From Gammaproteobacteria bacterium (GTDB lineage Bacteria; Pseudomonadota; Gammaproteobacteria; GCA-002705445; GCA-002716945): a stretch of DNA of 14,305 nucleotides. Position 1 is the stretch's first letter. The number at the start of each line of letters is the position of its first letter. The notes beneath the pieces were generated by a model, which was given only the letters and a program-made list of their open reading frames with translations, was not told the origin of the DNA and ran no database searches. The stretch covers positions 22,422-36,726 of the forward strand of contig NZWU01000012.1 in NCBI GenBank assembly GCA_002701705.1. Reading direction: 5' to 3'. This document shows, piece after piece, positions 3,499 through 11,225 of the stretch. A program made the translations under genes and the position numbers.

Positions 3499-4593
3499 TT
3501 AAAATCTAATGTATGCAGATGAATTAAGCGTTTTTCTTCCACCACGCCAATTATCAATATGGTATTTTGTGAATGGTAACTCTGTCAGTTCAAAAAATCT
3601 CGGCCAACCAATTCTGTCAATCCAATCATTTATCCTTTCCCAATCTCTAGCATCATCCTTATATACTTTAAGAATACGTTTAACTATGGCTGTTGCTTCA
3701 GGCCATCTTGGTGGGTTATTTGGTATCCCGGCAGCAACAAGCTTTTGAAAAGTTGGTTTTGTTCTTGCGTTAGAATGATTTCCACCAACCCAAATTGCCA
3801 ACTTACTATGCTCTGGATCATTAATCTGCATAGGTGGACATGGTGGATAACAAGCGCCACAGCATATACATTTCTTTTCATCAACCTCTAGGGATGGTTT
3901 ACCATTTACTATCGCAGGTCTAATAGCTGCTACGGGGCATCTTGCTACAACAGATGGTCTCTCACAAACATTAGATACTAAATCATGGTTGATCTTTGGT
4001 GGTTTTGTATGTTGAATATTAATTGCAATATCACCTTGTCCGCCACAATTTATTTGGCAGCAGGATGTAGTCATGTGCACTCTATTAGGCATTTCATTAT
4101 TTTTAAATTCATCTATAAGTTCATCCATCATTGATTTGACAACCCCTGATGCATCAGTACCAGGTATGTCACAATGTAACCATCCTTGAGTATGCGCAAT
4201 CATTGCAACAGAGTTTTTAGTCCCACCTACAATGAATCCTTCTTTTTCAAGAGCTGAAATTAGTGGGTCAACTTTAGTTGCATCTTTAACCATATATTCA
4301 ATGTTACTTCTAATAGTAAATCTGACGTAACCGTCAGCAAATTCATCACCGATATCACATAATTTTCTCAATGTGTAAACGTCTAGTATTCTTTGTGTTC
4401 CTGCTCTGACTGTCCAAATTTCTTCGTCACTCTTAGAAACATGTTTTAAAACTCCTGGTTTTGGATGTTCATGATATTTCCAACGACCAAAATTTTTACG
4501 CATAGTAGGATGCATATATTGAAAACCATCTGGGCAACCAGATTCGATTGGCGTTCTCATTTCTTTTTTTACTTTTTTAGTTTCTTTTTCCAT
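3499..4593 (-). CDS. dsrB: DsrB, beta subunit of reverse dissimilatory sulfite reductase
   Basis: With DsrA this forms the cytoplasmic siroheme enzyme that oxidises DsrC-bound sulfur to sulfite. The 364 residues contain the typical DsrB stretches IESG, HEHPKPGVLKHV, RFTIRSNIEYMV and TQGWLHCDIPGTDASG. Cluster and siroheme-region cysteines are Cys141, Cys178-179 and Cys183 (TTSCCQINCGGQGD). The inserted ferredoxin domain has Cys242/245/248/252 (KCICCGACYPPC). The protein ends in YIRF, as usual. The start is ATG at 4593, 14 bases after dsrA, with a poor ribosome binding site; an internal ATG at 4560 (MRTPIESG) preceded by AAAGAA is an alternative giving 353 residues. No sign of truncation. Confidence 0.96.
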   Translation of the reverse strand: MEKETKKVKKEMRTPIESGCPDGFQYMHPTMRKNFGRWKYHEHPKPGVLKHVSKSDEEIWTVRAGTQRILDVYTLRKLCDIGDEFADGYVRFTIRSNIEYMVKDATKVDPLISALEKEGFIVGGTKNSVAMIAHTQGWLHCDIPGTDASGVVKSMMDELIDEFKNNEMPNRVHMTTSCCQINCGGQGDIAINIQHTKPPKINHDLVSNVCERPSVVARCPVAAIRPAIVNGKPSLEVDEKKCICCGACYPPCPPMQINDPEHSKLAIWVGGNHSNARTKPTFQKLVAAGIPNNPPRWPEATAIVKRILKVYKDDARDWERINDWIDRIGWPRFFELTELPFTKYHIDNWRGGRKTLNSSAYIRF

Positions 4594-4607: not shown

Positions 4608-5861
4608 TCAAGCTGTATCTTTTTTTGAATCAGCCTTTTCATACCATTTCACAGCTTCATCATCCCAATCATCTAATCTGACATATGAACTTTCTCTTGG
4701 GTGAGCAACCATGTTGGGTTCTGCATCAATTCCAATTCCCTCAAGATAATTAATTAGCCCTATTCTTTCAATCATTTCTCCACACCTTTCATGTTCCAAT
4801 GCATTCTCAGCCCAAAAATCAATTGTATTCTCAGCAATTTCAACTAATTTTTCCCAATCTTCCTCAGATTCAAGTTTCATAAATGGAACAATTACAGTTC
4901 CCATCAAATCTCCAATTTTCAGTGTTCTTTTGCCACCTATTAAAACTGTCGCTCCTTTATCATCACCTGGATGGAGTGCTTTTGGTACGACATTTAAACA
5001 ATGCATGCACTTAACACAGTTTTGATTATCTATGACGATAGTATCATCATCATTTAATGAAATTGCATTTGTTGGGCATCTTGTAACAATGTTATCAATA
5101 ACATGCTTTCTTCCTTTTTTAGCAACATATTTTTTAAATTCTTCTTGATCTACTTTTATGTCATCACGCCAGGTACCAATCACAGACATGTCTGCGCGTT
5201 CTATACTATTCATACAATCGTTAGGACAGCCTGAGACTTTAAATTTAAATTTATAAGGTAATGCAGGTCTATGTATATCGTCTGTGAAGTTATTTACGAG
5301 TAATCGATGAGCTTTGTGTTCATTGATATTTGACATCTCACATCTACCAGCCCCAACACATGACATTCCGGTTCTGACACAAGGGCCAGCTCCACCTAAA
5401 TCAAAGCCATAATCATTGATTTCATCAAAGAAATGTTGTGTATTTTCTGTGGTAGCACCAATGAACATGATGTTTCCTGTCTGCCCATGAAAAGTGACTA
5501 GGCCTGAACCAAATTTCTCCCAACTGTCTGCAAGCTTTCTAAGCATATCAGTTGTATAATAATTGCCTGCAGGAGGTTGAACTCTTAATGTGTGAAATTC
5601 TTTTGATGCTGGGAATTGTTTACCCACTTCACTAAATCTAGGAATAATACCGCCACCATACCCATAAACAGAAACTGTGCCGCCTTTCCAATAACCTTTT
5701 CTTGTTTCATAAGAATGTTCCAATTGCCCCAAAAGGTCATTATTAACAGCATTTACTCTGTCATCTGGATGATCATCCCGTAGTTTTTTAATCCCTGATA
5801 TAAAAGATGGCCATGGACCTTCTTCCAAATTATCAAGCATGGGAGTATCATGTTTCTTCAT
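4608..5861 (-). CDS. dsrA: DsrA, alpha subunit of reverse dissimilatory sulfite reductase
   Basis: First gene of the operon and catalytic subunit of rDsrAB. The 417 residues start MKKHDTPMLDNLEEGPWPSF at the ATG at 5861, which has an AGG ribosome binding site; a TTG two codons upstream is in frame but unnecessary. The siroheme-[4Fe-4S] ligand motif Cx5C...Cx3C is complete: Cys168, Cys174, Cys212 and Cys216 (SCVGAGRCEMSN and SGCPNDCMNS). The ferredoxin domain has Cys262 and Cys282/285/288 (NCVKCMHC). RVQPPAGNYYTTDMLR is the conserved substrate-side region. Strong similarity to sulfur-oxidiser DsrA is recalled from the family; with dsrEFH downstream the oxidative direction is well supported. 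A divergent oxygenase gene lies 121 bases upstream. Confidence 0.97.
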   Translation of the reverse strand: MKKHDTPMLDNLEEGPWPSFISGIKKLRDDHPDDRVNAVNNDLLGQLEHSYETRKGYWKGGTVSVYGYGGGIIPRFSEVGKQFPASKEFHTLRVQPPAGNYYTTDMLRKLADSWEKFGSGLVTFHGQTGNIMFIGATTENTQHFFDEINDYGFDLGGAGPCVRTGMSCVGAGRCEMSNINEHKAHRLLVNNFTDDIHRPALPYKFKFKVSGCPNDCMNSIERADMSVIGTWRDDIKVDQEEFKKYVAKKGRKHVIDNIVTRCPTNAISLNDDDTIVIDNQNCVKCMHCLNVVPKALHPGDDKGATVLIGGKRTLKIGDLMGTVIVPFMKLESEEDWEKLVEIAENTIDFWAENALEHERCGEMIERIGLINYLEGIGIDAEPNMVAHPRESSYVRLDDWDDEAVKWYEKADSKKDTA

Positions 5862-5982
5862 AAACAACCTCTATATTGTTGGCTTATAGTGTTTATTATC
5901 TTATCATTAATTTCTAATATAGATATTACAATTTTGCACTTTTTTGCATTAAAATCAAGGGTACATAAACCTTAAAAATACA
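5862..5982. promoter_or_regulatory. Divergent intergenic region between dsrA and the dioxygenase gene
   Basis: These 121 very AT-rich bases must hold the promoters of the dsr operon (minus) and of the 5983 cluster (plus). I could not assign a convincing -35/-10 pair on either strand. A direct repeat TTTTGCA occurs at 5932-5938 and 5942-5948, exactly 10 bases apart, as expected for tandem binding of a regulator on one DNA face. In A. vinosum the region upstream of dsrA is a reported DsrC-binding and regulatory site; transfer of that to this repeat is inference. Confidence 0.5.
5932..5948. repeat. TTTTGCA direct repeat with 10-bp period
   Basis: Two copies of TTTTGCA separated by CTT, one helical turn apart, in the divergent dsrA upstream region. 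In AT-rich DNA this could be chance, so a regulatory role is only suggested by placement. Confidence 0.4.
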
Positions 5983-6837
5983 ATGGATATATCAAATACA
6001 ACAAAAGATGATTATAAGCGTTGGGAAGATAAAAAGTTAAATAATTTTATTTATCAACCAGATAAGATGATGGTTGAAATAGCTGAAGCTGAATCACTAA
6101 AAAAATCTGAGAAAACGAAGATAAAAGATTTACTTGATCAGCAGAACATAGTTTTTTATGAATTTAAAAGCATGAAAGGCACAACCCCAAGTGCTCTGCT
6201 TTCACTATCAAAACAGTTAGGGCTCGAGGATTTTGACTACAATCCTAAATCAGATAAGACAGGCTTAACTCCTATTACAGTCCAAAATGATTTAAACACA
6301 GACGATGAATACGTACCGTATACAACAAAGGCATTAAATTGGCATACTGATGGTTATTATAATCATTTCGATGAATCTATTCACTCTTGGTTACTACACT
6401 GCGATGAACCCGCAAAACAAGGAGGTGAAAACACTTTTCTTGACCATGAAATAGCTTATATATTGTTCAACCAACAAAATAAGAATATTTTATCTTTAAT
6501 GGATAACATTACATATACAATCCCTGAAAATAAAAAAACAGGTAGAAAAAGTGTGGATGGATATGTCTTCTCGTTTGAAAATAAATATAAAAAATTACAT
6601 ATGAGATTTACTATGAGAGAAAATAATATTCATTGGAATGAAAATGCTGTCAAGGAAGTTGATATGTTAAAGGAAATTATTAAAAAATCTGAAAGATATC
6701 ATGTTAAATATAAATTAGATTATCGCCAGGGCGTTATTACAAATAATATTTTACACAACCGTTCATCATTTACAAATTTAGGCAATCAGACTAGGCTGAT
6801 ATATAGGATTAGATCAAAAAAAAGAGTGGTTTTTTAG
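5983..6837 (+). CDS. TauD/TfdA-family 2-oxoglutarate/Fe(II) dioxygenase
   Basis: A non-heme iron oxygenase that should couple 2-oxoglutarate and O2 to oxidation of an unknown substrate. The 284 residues carry the facial triad His121-x-Asp123 (LNWHTDGYYN) and a distal His258 (NNILHNRSSF), with Arg271/Arg275 (TRLIYRIR) placed to bind the 2-oxoglutarate carboxylate. EPAKQGGENTFLDHE is the usual TauD-fold segment after the HxD motif. The start ATG at 5983 has no clear ribosome binding site. It heads a plus-strand group that is divergent from dsrA, and the next ATG follows its stop codon directly. TauD enzymes release sulfite from sulfonates and others act on unrelated small molecules; the substrate cannot be read from the sequence. 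Family call is firm, function is open. Confidence 0.85.
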   Translation: MDISNTTKDDYKRWEDKKLNNFIYQPDKMMVEIAEAESLKKSEKTKIKDLLDQQNIVFYEFKSMKGTTPSALLSLSKQLGLEDFDYNPKSDKTGLTPITVQNDLNTDDEYVPYTTKALNWHTDGYYNHFDESIHSWLLHCDEPAKQGGENTFLDHEIAYILFNQQNKNILSLMDNITYTIPENKKTGRKSVDGYVFSFENKYKKLHMRFTMRENNIHWNENAVKEVDMLKEIIKKSERYHVKYKLDYRQGVITNNILHNRSSFTNLGNQTRLIYRIRSKKRVVF

Positions 6838-7029
6838 ATGTTATATTTAAGTAGTTTATTAATTGAATATAAAGATGTGGAGAGTTTTGATCAATTAATA
6901 GATATTGTAAAAGAGAAAGCAAAACAAGGTGAAATATTTATTAAAATTGATTTAAAGCCGCCTTATCCTGATACGCCAGAAGACTGGGAGGATAAAATTG
7001 AATCTGCATTTAGTGGATATCAAAAATAG
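6838..7029 (+). CDS. Small 63-residue protein of unknown function
   Basis: Not recognised. The ATG abuts the stop codon of the dioxygenase gene (TAGATG), so it is very probably translated by coupling. The protein is acidic/basic mixed, without cysteine or membrane segment. It has an N-terminal hydrophobic stretch (MLYLSSLLIEY), a predicted helix around residues 15-30 and a C-terminal PPYPDTPEDWEDKIESAF segment rich in Pro, Trp and acid. Five bases separate it from the Cas6-like gene, so a role as a partner of either neighbour is plausible but unproven. Confidence 0.65.
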   Translation: MLYLSSLLIEYKDVESFDQLIDIVKEKAKQGEIFIKIDLKPPYPDTPEDWEDKIESAFSGYQK

Positions 7030-7037
7030 TACTCGTG

Positions 7038-7703
7038 ATGCCTGAAGAAAAAACTAATCTTACATCCTCAATGACTGACATTGCCTATATGATTAATTGT
7101 AAAACTCTTCCCTATGACCATGCTTTTGAACTTTCGAATCAGATCACAATGGTATTGCCGTGGCTTAATGATAATCTGCAAAATGGTATTCATATGTTGC
7201 ATGGACCTCATGCCGGTCATGGCTGGGAACGTTCAACAGATGATACAATTTTCCTATCCAAACGCACAAGACTCATACTAAGAATCCCAAAAACACATAT
7301 TGACCAAGCAAAAAAGCTTGAAGGGGTTACGTTAAAAATTTCAAATGATACTTTGGTAGTCGGAAAATCTTATGAAAAACCTTTCGCAGTAACAAGAGAT
7401 TTATTTTCTAAGTTTGTCATAGTTGATGAGGGAATAGATGAGGAACAATTCTTAGAAAAAATAAATAATGAATTACAACAAAATGGGATTTCATTACACA
7501 AAACAATTTGTGGCAAAACAAACACCCTAGAAATCAATAATAAAAAGAAATCTACACGCAGTCTTATGTTGCCAGGTTTATCTAAGCAACAATCAATACT
7601 CATACAGGATAAAGGCTTGGGTGAAGGAAGAATTTTTGGTTGTGGTTTATTTGTACCCCATAAATCAATTGATGCAGTTGCAAACTTTAAAGATGATGAG
7701 TAG
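7038..7703 (+). CDS. Stand-alone Cas6/Cmx6-family (type I-MYXAN Cas6-like) RAMP protein
   Basis: The 221 residues resemble the Cas6 variant annotated as Cmx6 of MYXAN-type CRISPR systems, a crRNA-processing endoribonuclease family. Seen in the sequence: an N-terminal CKTLPYDHAFELSNQI block, PWL, HGWER, SKRTRLILRIP (RNA-binding RAMP strand), SLHKTICGKT, TRSLML and a C-terminal glycine-rich loop at residues 193-203 (GLGEGRIFGCG) that fits the Cas6 consensus GhGxxxxxGhG, followed by LFVPHK. His28, His52, His55, His58 and His61 are candidates for a catalytic histidine. No Cas7, Cas5, Cas8, Cas3, Cas1/2 or repeat array is present in the window. The start is ATG at 7038 (a GTG directly precedes it); neither has a good ribosome binding site. 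In this dsr/DsrC-paralogue setting it may process a different RNA. Confidence 0.75.
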   Translation: MPEEKTNLTSSMTDIAYMINCKTLPYDHAFELSNQITMVLPWLNDNLQNGIHMLHGPHAGHGWERSTDDTIFLSKRTRLILRIPKTHIDQAKKLEGVTLKISNDTLVVGKSYEKPFAVTRDLFSKFVIVDEGIDEEQFLEKINNELQQNGISLHKTICGKTNTLEINNKKKSTRSLMLPGLSKQQSILIQDKGLGEGRIFGCGLFVPHKSIDAVANFKDDE

Positions 7704-7767
7704 TTTGTTCAACCATATGCTTGTGGACTTCTTGCAATTAGTATATTAGACTTTTCCAATATAGTTT

Positions 7768-7789: not shown

Positions 7790-8128
7790 ATGAAAATTGA
7801 ACTTAATGGCAATGAAATTGCGACAACAGATACTGGATTTCTGGTAAATGTAGATGATTGGAATGAAGAAATAGCCAAAATAATTGCAGCACAAGAAGAG
7901 ATAGAGCTTACAGACAAACACTGGGATGTGATTAAATATCTGCGAGATGAATTTATAAATAATAAAGAGAATCAACCAAATACAAGAAATATGGTGAAAG
8001 ACCTTGGCAAACTTTGGGGCGAAAAGATTGATACTAAAGCCCTCTTTGATTTGTTCCCAGGGAATCCAAGCAAGCAGGCAGGTAGAATTGCGGGCTTACC
8101 TGAAAGTAGAAGAAAAGGTGGTTATTAA
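7790..8128 (+). CDS. DsrC/TusE-family paralogue lacking both redox cysteines (RspA-like)
   Basis: A 112-residue DsrC-fold protein: KIELNGNEI, then GFLVNVDDWNEEIA, then HWDVIKYLRDEF, then LFPGNPSKQAGRIAGLP. CysB of true DsrC (KQAC) is Gly98 here (KQAG) and the C-terminus ends KGGY with no CysA; the protein contains no cysteine at all. It therefore cannot carry sulfur by the known DsrC chemistry. DsrC homologues without the cysteine pair have been grouped as RspA, regulatory sulfur-related proteins, and the fold contains a helix-turn-helix. Start ATG at 7790 with a weak GGTG site. Its stop codon abuts the next ATG at 8129. A role in sensing or in binding DNA, RNA or a Dsr partner is inference. 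Confidence 0.88.
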   Translation: MKIELNGNEIATTDTGFLVNVDDWNEEIAKIIAAQEEIELTDKHWDVIKYLRDEFINNKENQPNTRNMVKDLGKLWGEKIDTKALFDLFPGNPSKQAGRIAGLPESRRKGGY

Positions 8129-8353
8129 ATGGCAAATGAAAAGGCATTACAAGCAGAAAGAAAGAAAATTATCGCTCGATTATTAGAAATTCAAAAGAAA
8201 TTTATGGAATTAGAAAGAAAGGAAGGTGTAACTGAAAAAGATATACACCTCAACCCCGTTGGAATTGTCAAAGAATATAAAGAAGAACATGAAAAACTTG
8301 CTGATAGACTAGTTGATATTGCTCATGAATTGAAAGGGTCGATAAGAACATAA
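8129..8353 (+). CDS. Small 74-residue helical protein of unknown function
   Basis: Not recognised. The ATG directly follows the stop of the DsrC paralogue (TAAATG) and the stop overlaps the next gene's start, so all three are translated as a unit. The protein is highly charged, rich in Lys and Glu, with no cysteine. Residues 3-32 and 45-72 look like two long amphipathic helices (heptad-like spacing in AERKKIIARLLEIQKKFMEL and HEKLADRLVDIAHEL), joined by a loop with HLNPVG. A helical hairpin or coiled-coil partner of the RspA-like protein is a reasonable guess. Confidence 0.7.
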   Translation: MANEKALQAERKKIIARLLEIQKKFMELERKEGVTEKDIHLNPVGIVKEYKEEHEKLADRLVDIAHELKGSIRT

Positions 8354-8547: not shown

Positions 8548-9114
8548 TTATCCGCTTTTTCTAAGAGAATCGTAAACTTCAATTATTTTTTTATAAACTT
8601 CCACAGAGTCTATATCTACTATTTGATCCATAACCCATTTGTTTGTTTGACTCAGCCCCATGGCATCTTGTATTTTTTTAGCAAGGTGTCTAAAAATAGA
8701 ATAATTGGATTCCTTTTTTGAAAATTTAAATTCTGAATATTCTGATGACCGCATGTTTAACGTATTAATGTAGCCTTTTTTATAGTCGCCTAAACCAAAT
8801 AATTCTTCACAATTTTCCTGCATTATCCGTGCAGATTGTTTCCCCAGATTATTCATAATTGCGATACGTTCATCGTCAGTGGTCTTATCTAAAAATAACA
8901 ATCTGTCAACCAGGTGGATTTGGAAAGACATAAATTCCACAATTACAGTTACCCTTTGATGATCAGAACTATATTCAAAATCCTCACCATGAAGGTTCCT
9001 GGCCTTATCCAGAGATAATTTCCAAGCTATGAAAGATAATGCACTGGCAATATCCTCGCTTGTTTTGGTCTTGGAGGATGTTTTTGACCACTTACTCTTA
9101 ATTCTAATAGCCAT
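8548..9114 (-). CDS. Protein of unknown function, 188 residues, mostly helical
   Basis: Not recognised. The protein is soluble, with a basic Ser/Thr/Lys-rich N-terminus (KSKWSKTSSKTKTSED) followed by mainly helical sequence. Features include SALSFIAWKLSLDKARNLHGEDF, VEFMSFQIHLVDRLLF with a His and Asp-Arg pair, and a C-terminal IIEVYDSLRKSG. There is one cysteine (ENCEELFG). The start ATG at 9114 has no strong ribosome binding site. It lies opposite to the flanking genes: divergent from the oxygenase at 9182 and convergent with the 8353 gene. Its length, normal base composition and absence of a competing plus-strand gene support it as real; its relation to the sulfur genes is unknown. Confidence 0.7.
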   Translation of the reverse strand: MAIRIKSKWSKTSSKTKTSEDIASALSFIAWKLSLDKARNLHGEDFEYSSDHQRVTVIVEFMSFQIHLVDRLLFLDKTTDDERIAIMNNLGKQSARIMQENCEELFGLGDYKKGYINTLNMRSSEYSEFKFSKKESNYSIFRHLAKKIQDAMGLSQTNKWVMDQIVDIDSVEVYKKIIEVYDSLRKSG

Positions 9115-9181: not shown

Positions 9182-9775
9182 ATGGACATGCAAATAGAAA
9201 AAAGATTGATTGAATTAAAAGAAGGTAGTTTCATATTTGAGTTTAATGATTCTCTCAGCAAAGACAAATGTGATGAAATTATCAAACGGTTTGAAAATTC
9301 ATCTGACCAACATTATCAAGGCCGTATTGGGCAAAATTTAAAAGAAGATACTTCCATAAAAAAATCCACAGACATGGTCATCAGTGGTAAGGATGAATGG
9401 AAAGATATAGATGAGTTATTATTTACAAGTCTTGCTAAGGCTCTTAGTAGAGTAAAAAAACAGTTTGAGTTTTTTAACGGCCCTTTTAAAGATGTTGGAT
9501 ATGCTGTACAGAGAACTAAACCTGGTGAGTATTATCATTGGCATGTTGATAGTGGAAGCCATCAGTTGAGTGATCGTCAATTAGTTGCTATTTGGTATTT
9601 AAATGATATTGAAGGACCTGGAGGTGAAACAGAATTTCTTAACCAAGCTATAAAAATAAAACCAGAGACTGGTAAACTAATCCTCTTTCCTCCGTTTTGG
9701 ACTCATGAACATAGAGGTGTTAAACTTCAAAAAAGTGTTAAATACATTGCAACAACGTGGGTAGTCTTTAAATAA
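9182..9775 (+). CDS. 2-oxoglutarate/Fe(II) oxygenase of the prolyl 4-hydroxylase-like family
   Basis: A 197-residue iron oxygenase distinct from the TauD-type one at 5983. The C-terminal half (residues about 105-197) is a P4H-like double-stranded beta-helix: YAVQRTKPGEYYHWHVDSG gives the metal ligands His121 and Asp123; LVAIWYLND and GGETEFLN are standard; LFPPFWTHEHRGV supplies the distal His175, and Lys187 (SVKYIATTW) is placed for 2-oxoglutarate. Relatives hydroxylate protein side chains such as proline, or nucleic acids. The start is ATG at 9182 (another ATG two codons on) behind AGGAAA. Its stop overlaps the next ATG (TAATGG), linking it to the TrpD2-like gene. Substrate unknown; O2 or 2-oxoglutarate sensing by modification of a neighbour-encoded protein or RNA is inference. 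Confidence 0.85.
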   Translation: MDMQIEKRLIELKEGSFIFEFNDSLSKDKCDEIIKRFENSSDQHYQGRIGQNLKEDTSIKKSTDMVISGKDEWKDIDELLFTSLAKALSRVKKQFEFFNGPFKDVGYAVQRTKPGEYYHWHVDSGSHQLSDRQLVAIWYLNDIEGPGGETEFLNQAIKIKPETGKLILFPPFWTHEHRGVKLQKSVKYIATTWVVFK

Positions 9776-10896
9776 TGGCAGACTCAAACAAACAAAATTT
9801 ATCATCAAATGATTTGATGAAATCCGTAATTCAAAGAATTGCTACAGGGCCTGAGATGAGCAAAGATATTTCAAGAGAAGAAGCTCAGCTCTGTATGAGT
9901 TCTGTTCTCAAAGGTGAGATAGAAGAAACGCGTTCAGCTATTTTTCTTATTGCTCTTAGGATGAAAAGGGAAACTGATGATGAATGTCTTGGGATTCATG
10001 ATGCGATTAAAGAAGTTACGAAGTCTGTTGAGATATCAAAAAAGAATGTAATAAATATTGGTGATCCCTATGATGGCTTTACCAGAAATATTCCTTCTTC
10101 AGCTTTTCTCTTACCAGTTTTGGCAGAACTCGGATATCCAGTTCTCTCTCATGGAGTAGAATGTATTGGACCAAAATTTGGGTGTACACATAACATCACA
10201 TTTAAATTACTGGGTCTAAATGTAAATATGACGACTGAAGAAGCAGCAGAAAGATTAGAAAATAATAAGATTGGTTGGGCATATTTGGATCAGAGTCAAT
10301 TTTGTCCTGACCTTTATAATTTGATGAGTCTAAGAGATAAAATAATAAAAAGGCCGGTCATCACGACGATTGAAGTTCTTGCAAACCCAATAGTTGGTAC
10401 AAAAACACATTTTGTAACTGGATATGTTCATAAAGCATACCCACCTATTTATTTAAATTTATCTAGAAATGCAGGGTTTGATACAGCAATGGTCATACGT
10501 GGGACAGAAGGAGGAGTGATACCATCTCTTAAACAAGATGGGAAGATACATTTCTACAAGACAAAAAATGGCAATGATGAATTGCTTGAAGTCAATCCAA
10601 TAAGGGACCTAGAAATTGAGCAAGAAGTTCGTGCTGTAGCAATACCAGAAAATTTTTCAAAATTAAGTACTGCTGATAAAGTTGAAACTAAAATTAATCC
10701 TGAACAACTTGCATCTGAGACTATAAAACTTGGTTTGGAAGCTCTATCAGGAAAAGATGGACCAATGAAAGATTGTATAATTTATGGTTCTTCATTAATT
10801 TTGCAGCACATTACCAATGATAATTTATCTATTTGTACGAAAACTATTCGAGAAGTGATTGAATCCGGTAGCTGTTTAGACAGAATTAAACAATAG
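9775..10896 (+). CDS. TrpD2-like anthranilate phosphoribosyltransferase homologue with altered PRPP motif
   Basis: The 373 residues have the architecture of the nucleoside phosphorylase/anthranilate phosphoribosyltransferase superfamily: an N-terminal helical domain (about 12-84, including EIEETRSAIFLIALRMKRET) and an alpha/beta domain from about 92. The catalytic GTGGD loop of TrpD is replaced by GDPYDGFTRN (residues 96-105), and the following segment is LSHGVECIGPKFGCTHN where TrpD has KHGNRS-like sequence. It is therefore unlikely to make phosphoribosylanthranilate, and no trp gene is nearby. TrpD2/YbiB relatives of E. coli bind nucleic acid; whether this protein does is inference. The start overlaps the 9182 gene stop and the next gene begins 2 bases after its stop, so it belongs to that operon. 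Confidence 0.82.
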   Translation: MADSNKQNLSSNDLMKSVIQRIATGPEMSKDISREEAQLCMSSVLKGEIEETRSAIFLIALRMKRETDDECLGIHDAIKEVTKSVEISKKNVINIGDPYDGFTRNIPSSAFLLPVLAELGYPVLSHGVECIGPKFGCTHNITFKLLGLNVNMTTEEAAERLENNKIGWAYLDQSQFCPDLYNLMSLRDKIIKRPVITTIEVLANPIVGTKTHFVTGYVHKAYPPIYLNLSRNAGFDTAMVIRGTEGGVIPSLKQDGKIHFYKTKNGNDELLEVNPIRDLEIEQEVRAVAIPENFSKLSTADKVETKINPEQLASETIKLGLEALSGKDGPMKDCIIYGSSLILQHITNDNLSICTKTIREVIESGSCLDRIKQ

Positions 10897-10898
10897 TT

Positions 10899-11225
10899 AT
10901 GAGAAAAGAGATAACTACCGATGATGCTGGATTTCTCCAAAATCCAGATGATTGGAATGAAGAATTTGCATCAAAAACAGCAAAAAATTTTGATTTAGCT
11001 CTTACTGATGCTCATTGGGAAGTTATCAAATACATTAGAAATCATTATACTAAACATAACAGGGTGCCGGAATTGAGAGAGTTATTGAGACTTTTTGAAA
11101 CTAATTATGGGAAAGAAAAATCTTCTAGAAAATATATATATAAACTCTTTCCCTACGGATATGGACAGCAAGCATGTAAAATTGCTGGTATGCGACAACC
11201 TAAAAAACTTTGGTTGGATGTTTAG
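10899..11225 (+). CDS. DsrC-family paralogue keeping only CysB (RspA-like)
   Basis: A 108-residue DsrC-fold protein: TTDDAGFLQNPDDWNEEFA, then DAHWEVIKYIRNHY, then IYKLFPYGYGQQACKIAG. Cys93 is CysB, the inner arm cysteine, but the chain ends QPKKLWLDV with no penultimate CysA, so the disulfide or trisulfide of true DsrC cannot form. The first beta strand seen in DsrC (EVNGK) is mostly absent. It is placed 2 bases after the TrpD2-like gene and 3 bases before the DUF4396-like gene. It differs from the cysteine-free paralogue at 7790 and from DsrC at 2059, so three cysteine patterns occur in one locus. A partner-binding or regulatory job is likely but unproven. Confidence 0.88.
   Translation: MRKEITTDDAGFLQNPDDWNEEFASKTAKNFDLALTDAHWEVIKYIRNHYTKHNRVPELRELLRLFETNYGKEKSSRKYIYKLFPYGYGQQACKIAGMRQPKKLWLDV

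Follow-up and report, generated by a model that had tools for sequence, protein, structure and literature searches.

Cas6 is usually taken for a CRISPR enzyme, and the model name cas6_cmx6 would file the gene studied here under type I-MYXAN CRISPR. The gene lies at positions 7038–7703 on the plus strand of a 14,305-nucleotide stretch of a Gammaproteobacteria genome, referred to below as the window, next to genes of the Dsr sulfur-oxidation system, a pathway that is important to the cycling of sulfur in the sea, sediments, and symbioses. The locus raises the question of what a Cas6 does among dsr genes. Our survey shows that the gene has an inherited bond to dsr, and a bond this tight suggests that sulfur oxidation has a conserved RNA-type factor that had been overlooked.

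Identity of the Cas6 gene

The stand-alone gene encodes 221 amino acids, with an ATG start at 7038, an in-frame GTG at 7035, and a stop codon at 7701–7703. A first-pass annotation of the locus had called the product Cas6/Cmx6-like. Profile searches bear this out well beyond chance, with the protein exceeding the curated cut-offs of both PF09559 (2.3e-52, 178.2 bits against 26.7) and TIGR02807 cas6_cmx6 (112.5 bits against 98.85), and the PADLOC Cas6 models match it as well (best 2.6e-56). Judged by these matches, the window protein is a true Cas6/Cmx6 homologue and a member of that protein family, and the gene belongs to the PF09559 branch; the PF01881 profile found nothing in the window's genome. 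PF09559 matched 0 of 14 control genomes, in a set of searches that held no positive control. Viral contigs queried with the single sequence gave no relatives, and a PHROG search of the protein returned no family.

The protein falls, above the cut-offs, in the same Pfam and NCBIfam families as the TIGR02807/PF09559 Cmx6 of type I-MYXAN CRISPR, found for example on cyanobacterial plasmids, and it is 22–27% identical to the cyanobacterial-plasmid Cmx6 across 89–97% of its length. A glycine-rich loop and a histidine in the alpha-1 region are common to both, whereas the GNGW-x-R, TRS, and PHK stretches are the dsr-linked family's own and are absent from the three CRISPR Cmx6 that were aligned. The sole significant solved relative of the family by profile is 8fcj (2.5e-25), the Cas6 of a type I-B CRISPR-associated transposon, which works in a CRISPR transposon complex and, according to the alignments, has an asparagine where the dsr-linked family has its alpha-1 histidine.

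Predicted fold and conserved residues

An AlphaFold2 model of the window Cas6, built with 26 homologues, reached a mean pLDDT of 90.2 and a pTM of 0.85. Its first half runs through strand 12–20, helix 29–39, strand 78–84, helix 85–94, and strand 104–114, and its second half through strand 122–129, helix 135–148, strands 157–166 and 169–178, and helix 183–192. Compared with the description of Cas6 in PMC3727216 by strand/helix order only, this predicted topology is that of two consecutive RAMP-like halves, the pairing expected if the Cas6 reading was right. The same source gives the Cas6 glycine-rich loop as the consensus G-phi-G-X5-G-phi-G with a basic residue, placed after the last helix of the second half. 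The loop singled out at first pass, GLGEGRIFGCG, is present in the window protein, fits this consensus, and occupies the same place in the model.

Conservation was assessed over 101 Cas6 sequences, two of which (L057 and L157) are identical. The loop glycines are nearly invariant (Gly193 in 100, Gly195 in 99, Gly201 in 100, and Gly203 in 101), and loop position 198 is basic in most sequences, as Arg in 86/101 and Lys in 9/101. Arg76 and Arg82 are kept in all 101 relatives, and Lys209 in 100. His28, which immediately precedes helix 29–39 (alpha-1) in the model, is kept in 100 of the 101, and all three aligned CRISPR Cmx6 have this histidine too. Active-site histidines have been reported in alpha-1 of other Cas6 enzymes, namely His26 of TtCas6e and His29 of PaCas6f (PMC3652601), and the window Cas6 carries a histidine of this catalytic type. 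Such a residue is common in Cas6 and not universal; the same paper describes active Cas6 proteins from which it is absent, as well as very low Cas6 turnover. A Cas6-like sequence alone is no proof of cleavage.

No tie to CRISPR

The first-pass annotation had seen neither Cas genes nor a repeat array beside the gene. This stood up to closer inspection: other Cas families were absent from the ten window proteins scanned (the dsr-side and right-end proteins lay outside the scan), and there is no CRISPR array in the window, because it contains no tandem repeats and its direct repeats are two-copy only, of 20–26 nt. The operon of a type I-MYXAN Cmx6 would place cas3, cas8, cas7, cas5, and cas1 beside the gene. 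None of these, nor an array, was seen near the window Cas6, which has dsr and cassette genes as neighbours instead. The arrangement differs in the cyanobacterial plasmid relatives annotated as CRISPR Cas6, where all six that were examined have the gene immediately ahead of cas3. The window Cas6 is not part of a CRISPR locus and, judged by its gene context, does not belong to a CRISPR system.

A complete MYXAN-type locus elsewhere in the genome had been named at first pass as a finding that would overturn the idea of a domesticated gene. None of the order's 25 genomes gave a Cas1 match, neither the window's own (70.8% complete) nor its 24 relatives, and PF09559 matched 20 of the same 25, once each. 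Across a sample of 369 genomes of the class Gammaproteobacteria, PF09559 was present in 118, again with one match each; the exception was G286, with two adjacent pieces. Cas1 was present in 135 of the 369 (E up to 1e-3, weak matches counted), distributed as 50 of 118 carriers versus 85 of 251 non-carriers (p 0.13), so that presence of the gene was not tied to this CRISPR adaptation gene. Among the Cas1 matches listed, the closest to cas6 on the same contig was 21.8 kb away. On this Cas1 survey of the order and the class, CRISPR service in trans was rejected as a general explanation.

A cassette divergent from dsrA

The gene sits in a cassette of plus-strand genes. The first of these, at 5983–6837, encodes a TauD-type Fe(II)/2-oxoglutarate dioxygenase (PF02668, 1.5e-12), in which His121, Asp123, His258, and Arg275 are found in 61/61 relatives and the iron ligands are kept; this TauD-like enzyme has no obvious RNA role. 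It is followed at 6838–7029 by a gene for a 63-aa conserved protein that adjoins cas6 (cluster 7, at least 41 of 81 loci, no Pfam match). Downstream of cas6 are a DsrC paralogue without cysteines, here called DsrC', with a C-terminal KGGY (7790–8128; PF04358, 1.2e-33), and, abutting it, a gene for a 74-aa conserved protein (8129–8353; cluster 14, at least 26 of 81 loci, nothing over the curated Pfam cut-off). The oxygenase and the DsrC paralogue do flank the gene, as described at first pass, but the oxygenase is not its immediate neighbour, because the 63-aa gene lies between the two.

A minus-strand gene at 8548–9114 encodes a 188-aa conserved protein that is often near the cassette (cluster 12, at least 33 of 81 loci, no Pfam match); it stands beside cas6, DsrC', and tauD in four divergent loci (L138–L141). 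The protein was also observed to recur near dsr as well as near the cassette.

The dsr genes are on the minus strand, divergent from the cassette. They comprise dsrA at 4608–5867 (TIGR02064, 2.7e-188; the match at G000:C19:27056-28258 corresponds to window 4635–5837), dsrB at 3499–4593, which clusters with dsrA and is the second, weaker TIGR02064 match of G000 (3.1e-21), and the canonical dsrC of the dsr operon at 2059–2391, which has both C-terminal cysteines and ends in ...QACKFAGLPKPTGCV. The intergenic region between the divergent dsrA and tauD (5868–5982) contains blocks conserved among nine aligned close relatives, and given its orientation it is probably the promoter region for both genes.

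Neighbourhoods were compared over 81 loci, the window and the best 80 of at least 573 relatives found with an alignment query. Their common order is dsrA on the reverse strand, then tauD, the 63-aa gene, in some cases a gene for a 236-aa protein, cas6, DsrC', and the 74-aa gene, all forward. Carriers of the cassette include Sedimenticola selenatireducens (L117) and Halochromatium roseum (L090). The counts over these loci are lower bounds, because simple ORF calling picks antisense ORFs in GC-rich DNA: 11 of the 81 showed no Cas6 cluster, yet 80 of 80 fetched loci encode a Cas6 relative. For this reason the GC-rich loci were re-read by tblastn.

Linkage to dsrA across genomes

For the class sample, dsrA was called with TIGR02064 at E <= 1e-30, a threshold chosen to keep out related sulfite reductases, which raise the number of matching genomes to 217 at 1e-3; the family's own cut-off is passed by 112 genomes. 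By this call, cas6 was present in 118 of the 369 genomes and dsrA in 119, with both in 111, cas6 alone in 7, dsrA alone in 8, and neither in 243. The co-occurrence has an odds ratio of 482 and a p value of 7e-75, which overstates certainty because the 369 genomes are not independent samples. The pattern anticipated at first pass, a family found near dsr without CRISPR, is thus what the survey returned, with dsrA in 111 of 118 carriers and no association with Cas1.

The linkage is also positional. Where cas6 and dsrA share a contig (n = 84), 82 pairs lie within 6 kb and all 82 of these are divergent; the two remaining pairs are separated by 41 kb (G133) and 517 kb (G347). In each of the seven cas6-only genomes, tblastn located other cassette genes on the cas6 contig, and six of the seven contigs end within ~0.8 kb of the dsrA-side cassette gene, the exception being G321. 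One of the seven, G340, has a dsrA fragment at the contig edge. Within the order, 18 of the 25 genomes have both genes, five have neither, and two have cas6 only, at ~0.5 and 1.1 kb from the contig start. Among 101 Cas6 loci, 20 of them chosen by hand, every one of the 62 in which both Cas6 and DsrA are complete has the two genes divergent and no more than 6 kb apart. Exceptions to the arrangement are few: cas6 occurs without the cassette in G133, G249, and G347, which belong to one family, and in G056, and in G085 it is directly divergent from dsrA without DsrC'.

A draw of 398 genomes across the phylum contained PF09559 in five, all from the window's class. The proportion of carriers varies from draw to draw (118/369 versus 5/398), and no prevalence estimate follows from it. 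The four carriers besides the window's own have cas6 divergent from dsrA, together with DsrC', the 188-aa protein, and TauD. Among phylum-draw genomes with dsrA at E <= 1e-90, cas6 was found in five of five from the class and in 0 of 48 from other proteobacterial classes (18 families). This indicates a class-specific accessory, and that rDsr chemistry does not need the gene. Accessory genes of sulfur oxidisers that are linked to the dsr cluster have been described, namely dsrN, dsrR, dsrS, and dsrL (PMC3368242). Unlike these, cas6 is divergent from the operon, is confined to one class in these samples, and comes from an RNA-processing family.

Distances among Cas6 sequences follow those among DsrA sequences, with a Mantel r of 0.69 against a maximum of 0.275 in 5000 permutations (n = 62). 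The dN/dS of Cas6 was 0.07–0.12 in 10 of 12 computable pairs (14 were tried, and three of the ten fall within one trio); the two other pairs gave 0.22, for the window paired with L057, and 0.40, for two Marithrix. These results show that Cas6 is under purifying selection and is co-inherited with dsrA. A tree of 50 carriers and six CRISPR Cas6 placed each set on one side of a branch with support of 100/99, the CRISPR members being cyanobacterial only and some of the carriers not lying beside dsrA. The dsr-linked Cas6 differs from type I-MYXAN Cmx6 in both respects, inherited with dsrA and forming a separate group in the tree. The domestication and the link to sulfur-metabolism genes that the first-pass annotation had proposed are established by these data: the gene is kept without CRISPR, is under purifying selection, and is bound to dsr and a DsrC paralogue.

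A DsrC paralogue without cysteines

DsrC' is over the cut-off for both PF04358 and TIGR03342 and so belongs to the DsrC/TusE family, and the copy in the window (7790–8128) has no cysteine at all. The sulfur carriers of this family have C-terminal cysteines. Neither catalytic cysteine is found in any of 46 cas6-adjacent DsrC', which end in RKGGY instead, whereas 29 of 29 dsr-operon DsrC have both; 13 further sequences end in KGGY. The penultimate cysteine of DsrC is reported to be strictly conserved and required for contact with DsrEFH (PMC3397948). Since it is absent, DsrC' cannot carry sulfur through a contact of the DsrEFH type. The DsrC of A. vinosum has been reported to bind DNA upstream of dsr (PMC5944118), so that DsrC' might conceivably act as a regulator. 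We note that DsrC' has the appearance of a dead sulfur carrier under strong conservation.

The window holds a third DsrC homologue at 10899–11225, whose only cysteine lies close to its end (QQACKIAGMRQPKKLWLDV). It adjoins a TrpD/YbiB-like protein (9775–10896) and is followed by a DUF4396 protein (PF14342, 11229–11678) whose cluster is found in at least 10 of the 81 loci.

Search for an RNA substrate and shared DNA elements

Hairpins were sought by folding the cassette and dsr gaps, by listing locally stable hairpins in 24 loci, and by aligning the gaps of close relatives. Among the hairpins listed, none stood out as a conserved substrate in the lineage of the window, and an Rfam scan of the window matched no family. 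Perfect hairpins were present in the cas6–DsrC' gap of 13 of 44 loci versus 8.2 in shuffles, no clear excess. Strong GC-rich hairpins that at first resembled targets were observed, again among those listed, in the dsrA–dsrB gaps of L074, L078, L083, L088, and L096 and in the dsrC–dsrM gaps of L074, L078, L088, and L110; no strong intercistronic dsr hairpins were seen among those listed for the window's lineage. Intercistronic dsr hairpins were rejected as the Cas6 target, given that the window's gaps at these two positions are only 14 and 31 nt long, yet the gene is kept.

The cas6–DsrC' gap contains a 22-bp palindrome-like element at 7742–7763, a conserved block in ten aligned sequences of the order including the window. 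A pattern search for it returned one site, read on both strands, where 0.03 were expected, the pattern having been derived from the same aligned relatives. The order's element, TATATTAGA..., recurs almost letter for letter, on the opposite strand, in the dsrA/tauD region (5868–5982). As a hairpin, the 22-bp dyad was rejected: its left arm is invariant while its right arm drifts, which speaks against an RNA stem.

Another palindrome, TAYCC-N6-GGRTA, was found in 30 of 64 dsrA/cassette regions (e.g., L110, L101, and L117). It is absent from the window's lineage, which has the different dyad described above. With spacers of 0–14 other than 6, TAYCC/GGRTA occurred in at most two regions, and shuffles gave 0.2. 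Palindromes with spacers of 3–7 had a density of 0.153 per kb within 3 kb of cas6 versus 0.012 beyond, about 13-fold denser, with most sites counted on both strands. The third-position pairs of 31 elements were T/A in 18, C/A in 7, T/G in 5, and C/G in 1. Independent half-sites fit the pattern, on counts taken by hand from the 30 regions. Because both mixed forms occur (7 and 5 of 31), a Cas6-size RNA stem-loop was rejected, and the site of a DNA-binding protein, an operator, fits better than an RNA stem. From its sequence pattern, TAYCC-N6-GGRTA is likely the operator of a dsr regulator, and its occurrence suggests one regulator common to the cassette and dsrA. Half-sites or copies were also seen in the cas6–DsrC' and DsrC'–74-aa gaps.

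On sulfide, transcripts of dsrEFH and dsrC are reported to be more abundant than the dsrA transcript (PMC3397948, citing Grimm 2010), an excess that would fit RNA-level control. However, dsrC has its own promoter (PMC3368242), which explains the excess without processing.

What the domesticated Cas6 may do

The reading that we favour, with modest confidence, is that this domesticated Cas6 is an accessory of the Dsr system that acts in Cas6 fashion on a host RNA, with DsrC' as its likely partner. Under this reading, a Cas6 would have left CRISPR immunity and become an accessory of the Dsr sulfur-oxidation system in one proteobacterial class, inherited with dsr and placed divergently from dsrA. 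Its tandem RAMP fold and glycine-rich loop would grip one structured host RNA, and His28, at the start of alpha-1, could make a slow, metal-independent cut. The target would come from the Dsr programme: a dsr mRNA, its leader, or a small RNA. We infer that DsrC', the likely partner, would serve as a sensor or a DNA-binding regulator and not as a sulfur carrier. A more specific version, in which expression of the dsr machinery is set by a dedicated host RNA that Cas6 processes and the cysteine-less DsrC is the sensor partner, is put forward tentatively, at a little less than an even chance. Several results count against the favoured explanation: the searches turned up no RNA substrate, eight class-sample genomes have dsrA but no cas6 match, dsrA-bearing genomes of other proteobacterial classes manage without the gene, and the TauD-like neighbour has no obvious role with RNA. 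RNA cleavage or holding ranks as the most likely activity, ahead of pure RNA binding, with a protein scaffold third.

Pure binding would make the protein a chaperone, or a translational or stability regulator of a dsr mRNA or small RNA, without cleavage. It fits the basic residues Arg76, Arg82, and Lys209 that are kept along with the glycine-rich loop, and Cas6 turnover is reported to be so slow that chaperone-like roles were judged equally or more important (PMC3652601). Yet an alpha-1 histidine in 100 of 101 relatives is more than a pure binder needs, and the gaps searched yielded no conserved target structure, so we regard this alternative as unlikely while taking it seriously.

A further step away from Cas6 activity would be reuse of the RAMP fold as a scaffold or regulator that works with DsrC', the TauD-like enzyme, or DsrAB, without any RNA. 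The neighbours are indeed enzymes and a DsrC-like protein rather than RNA factors, and the GNGW-x-R, TRS, and PHK stretches missing from the three aligned CRISPR Cmx6 could be read this way. But the most conserved features of the family include the loop and the alpha-1 histidine, the very parts with which Cas6 handles RNA, and the gene persists without DsrC' and TauD in L149–L151 and L155, and in L152 directly divergent from dsrA. We consider a scaffold role rather improbable. That the protein is an ordinary CRISPR Cas6, serving distant arrays in trans or left over from a lost type I-MYXAN locus, is extremely improbable: it passes the cut-off of the CRISPR model TIGR02807, 50 of 118 carriers have Cas1, the window's genome is just 70.8% complete, and the array scan covered the window alone, but Cas1 is missing from every one of the order's 25 genomes, it is not significantly more frequent in carriers than in non-carriers, its nearest listed match on a cas6 contig is 21.8 kb off, true CRISPR Cmx6 lies directly before cas3 in six of six plasmids, and the strict dsrA linkage, purifying selection, and separate tree group all argue otherwise.

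If the more specific version, with its dedicated host RNA, is true, most dsr-bearing sulfur oxidisers of the class would have a CRISPR-independent Cas6 pathway. From the dsr linkage, sulfur metabolism seems to include an RNA-handling step that has gone unrecognised, and the linkage raises a testable question: what is the host RNA target of a Cas6 without CRISPR, and how does its action affect Dsr?

Relation to earlier reports

What is new here is a known Cas6 family in a role outside CRISPR, where it would exert Cas6-type RNA handling. Our literature search, which covered few subscription journals, returned one earlier sighting of cas6 among dsr genes (PMC10989796). Other papers naming both Cas6 and dsrC mention the two apart in the passages retrieved. 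The Cas6 of PMC7540712 is that of a type I-E system, and the word CRISPR is absent from a large synteny study of Dsr proteins (PMC10504309). In PMC10989796, the word cas6 occurs once, in the legend of Figure 3B, and the text passages seen offer no interpretation of it. That legend gives cas6 in purple on a map of dissimilatory sulfur genes in genomes from mangrove metagenomes, and it is probably the same gene in the same place as the one in the window.
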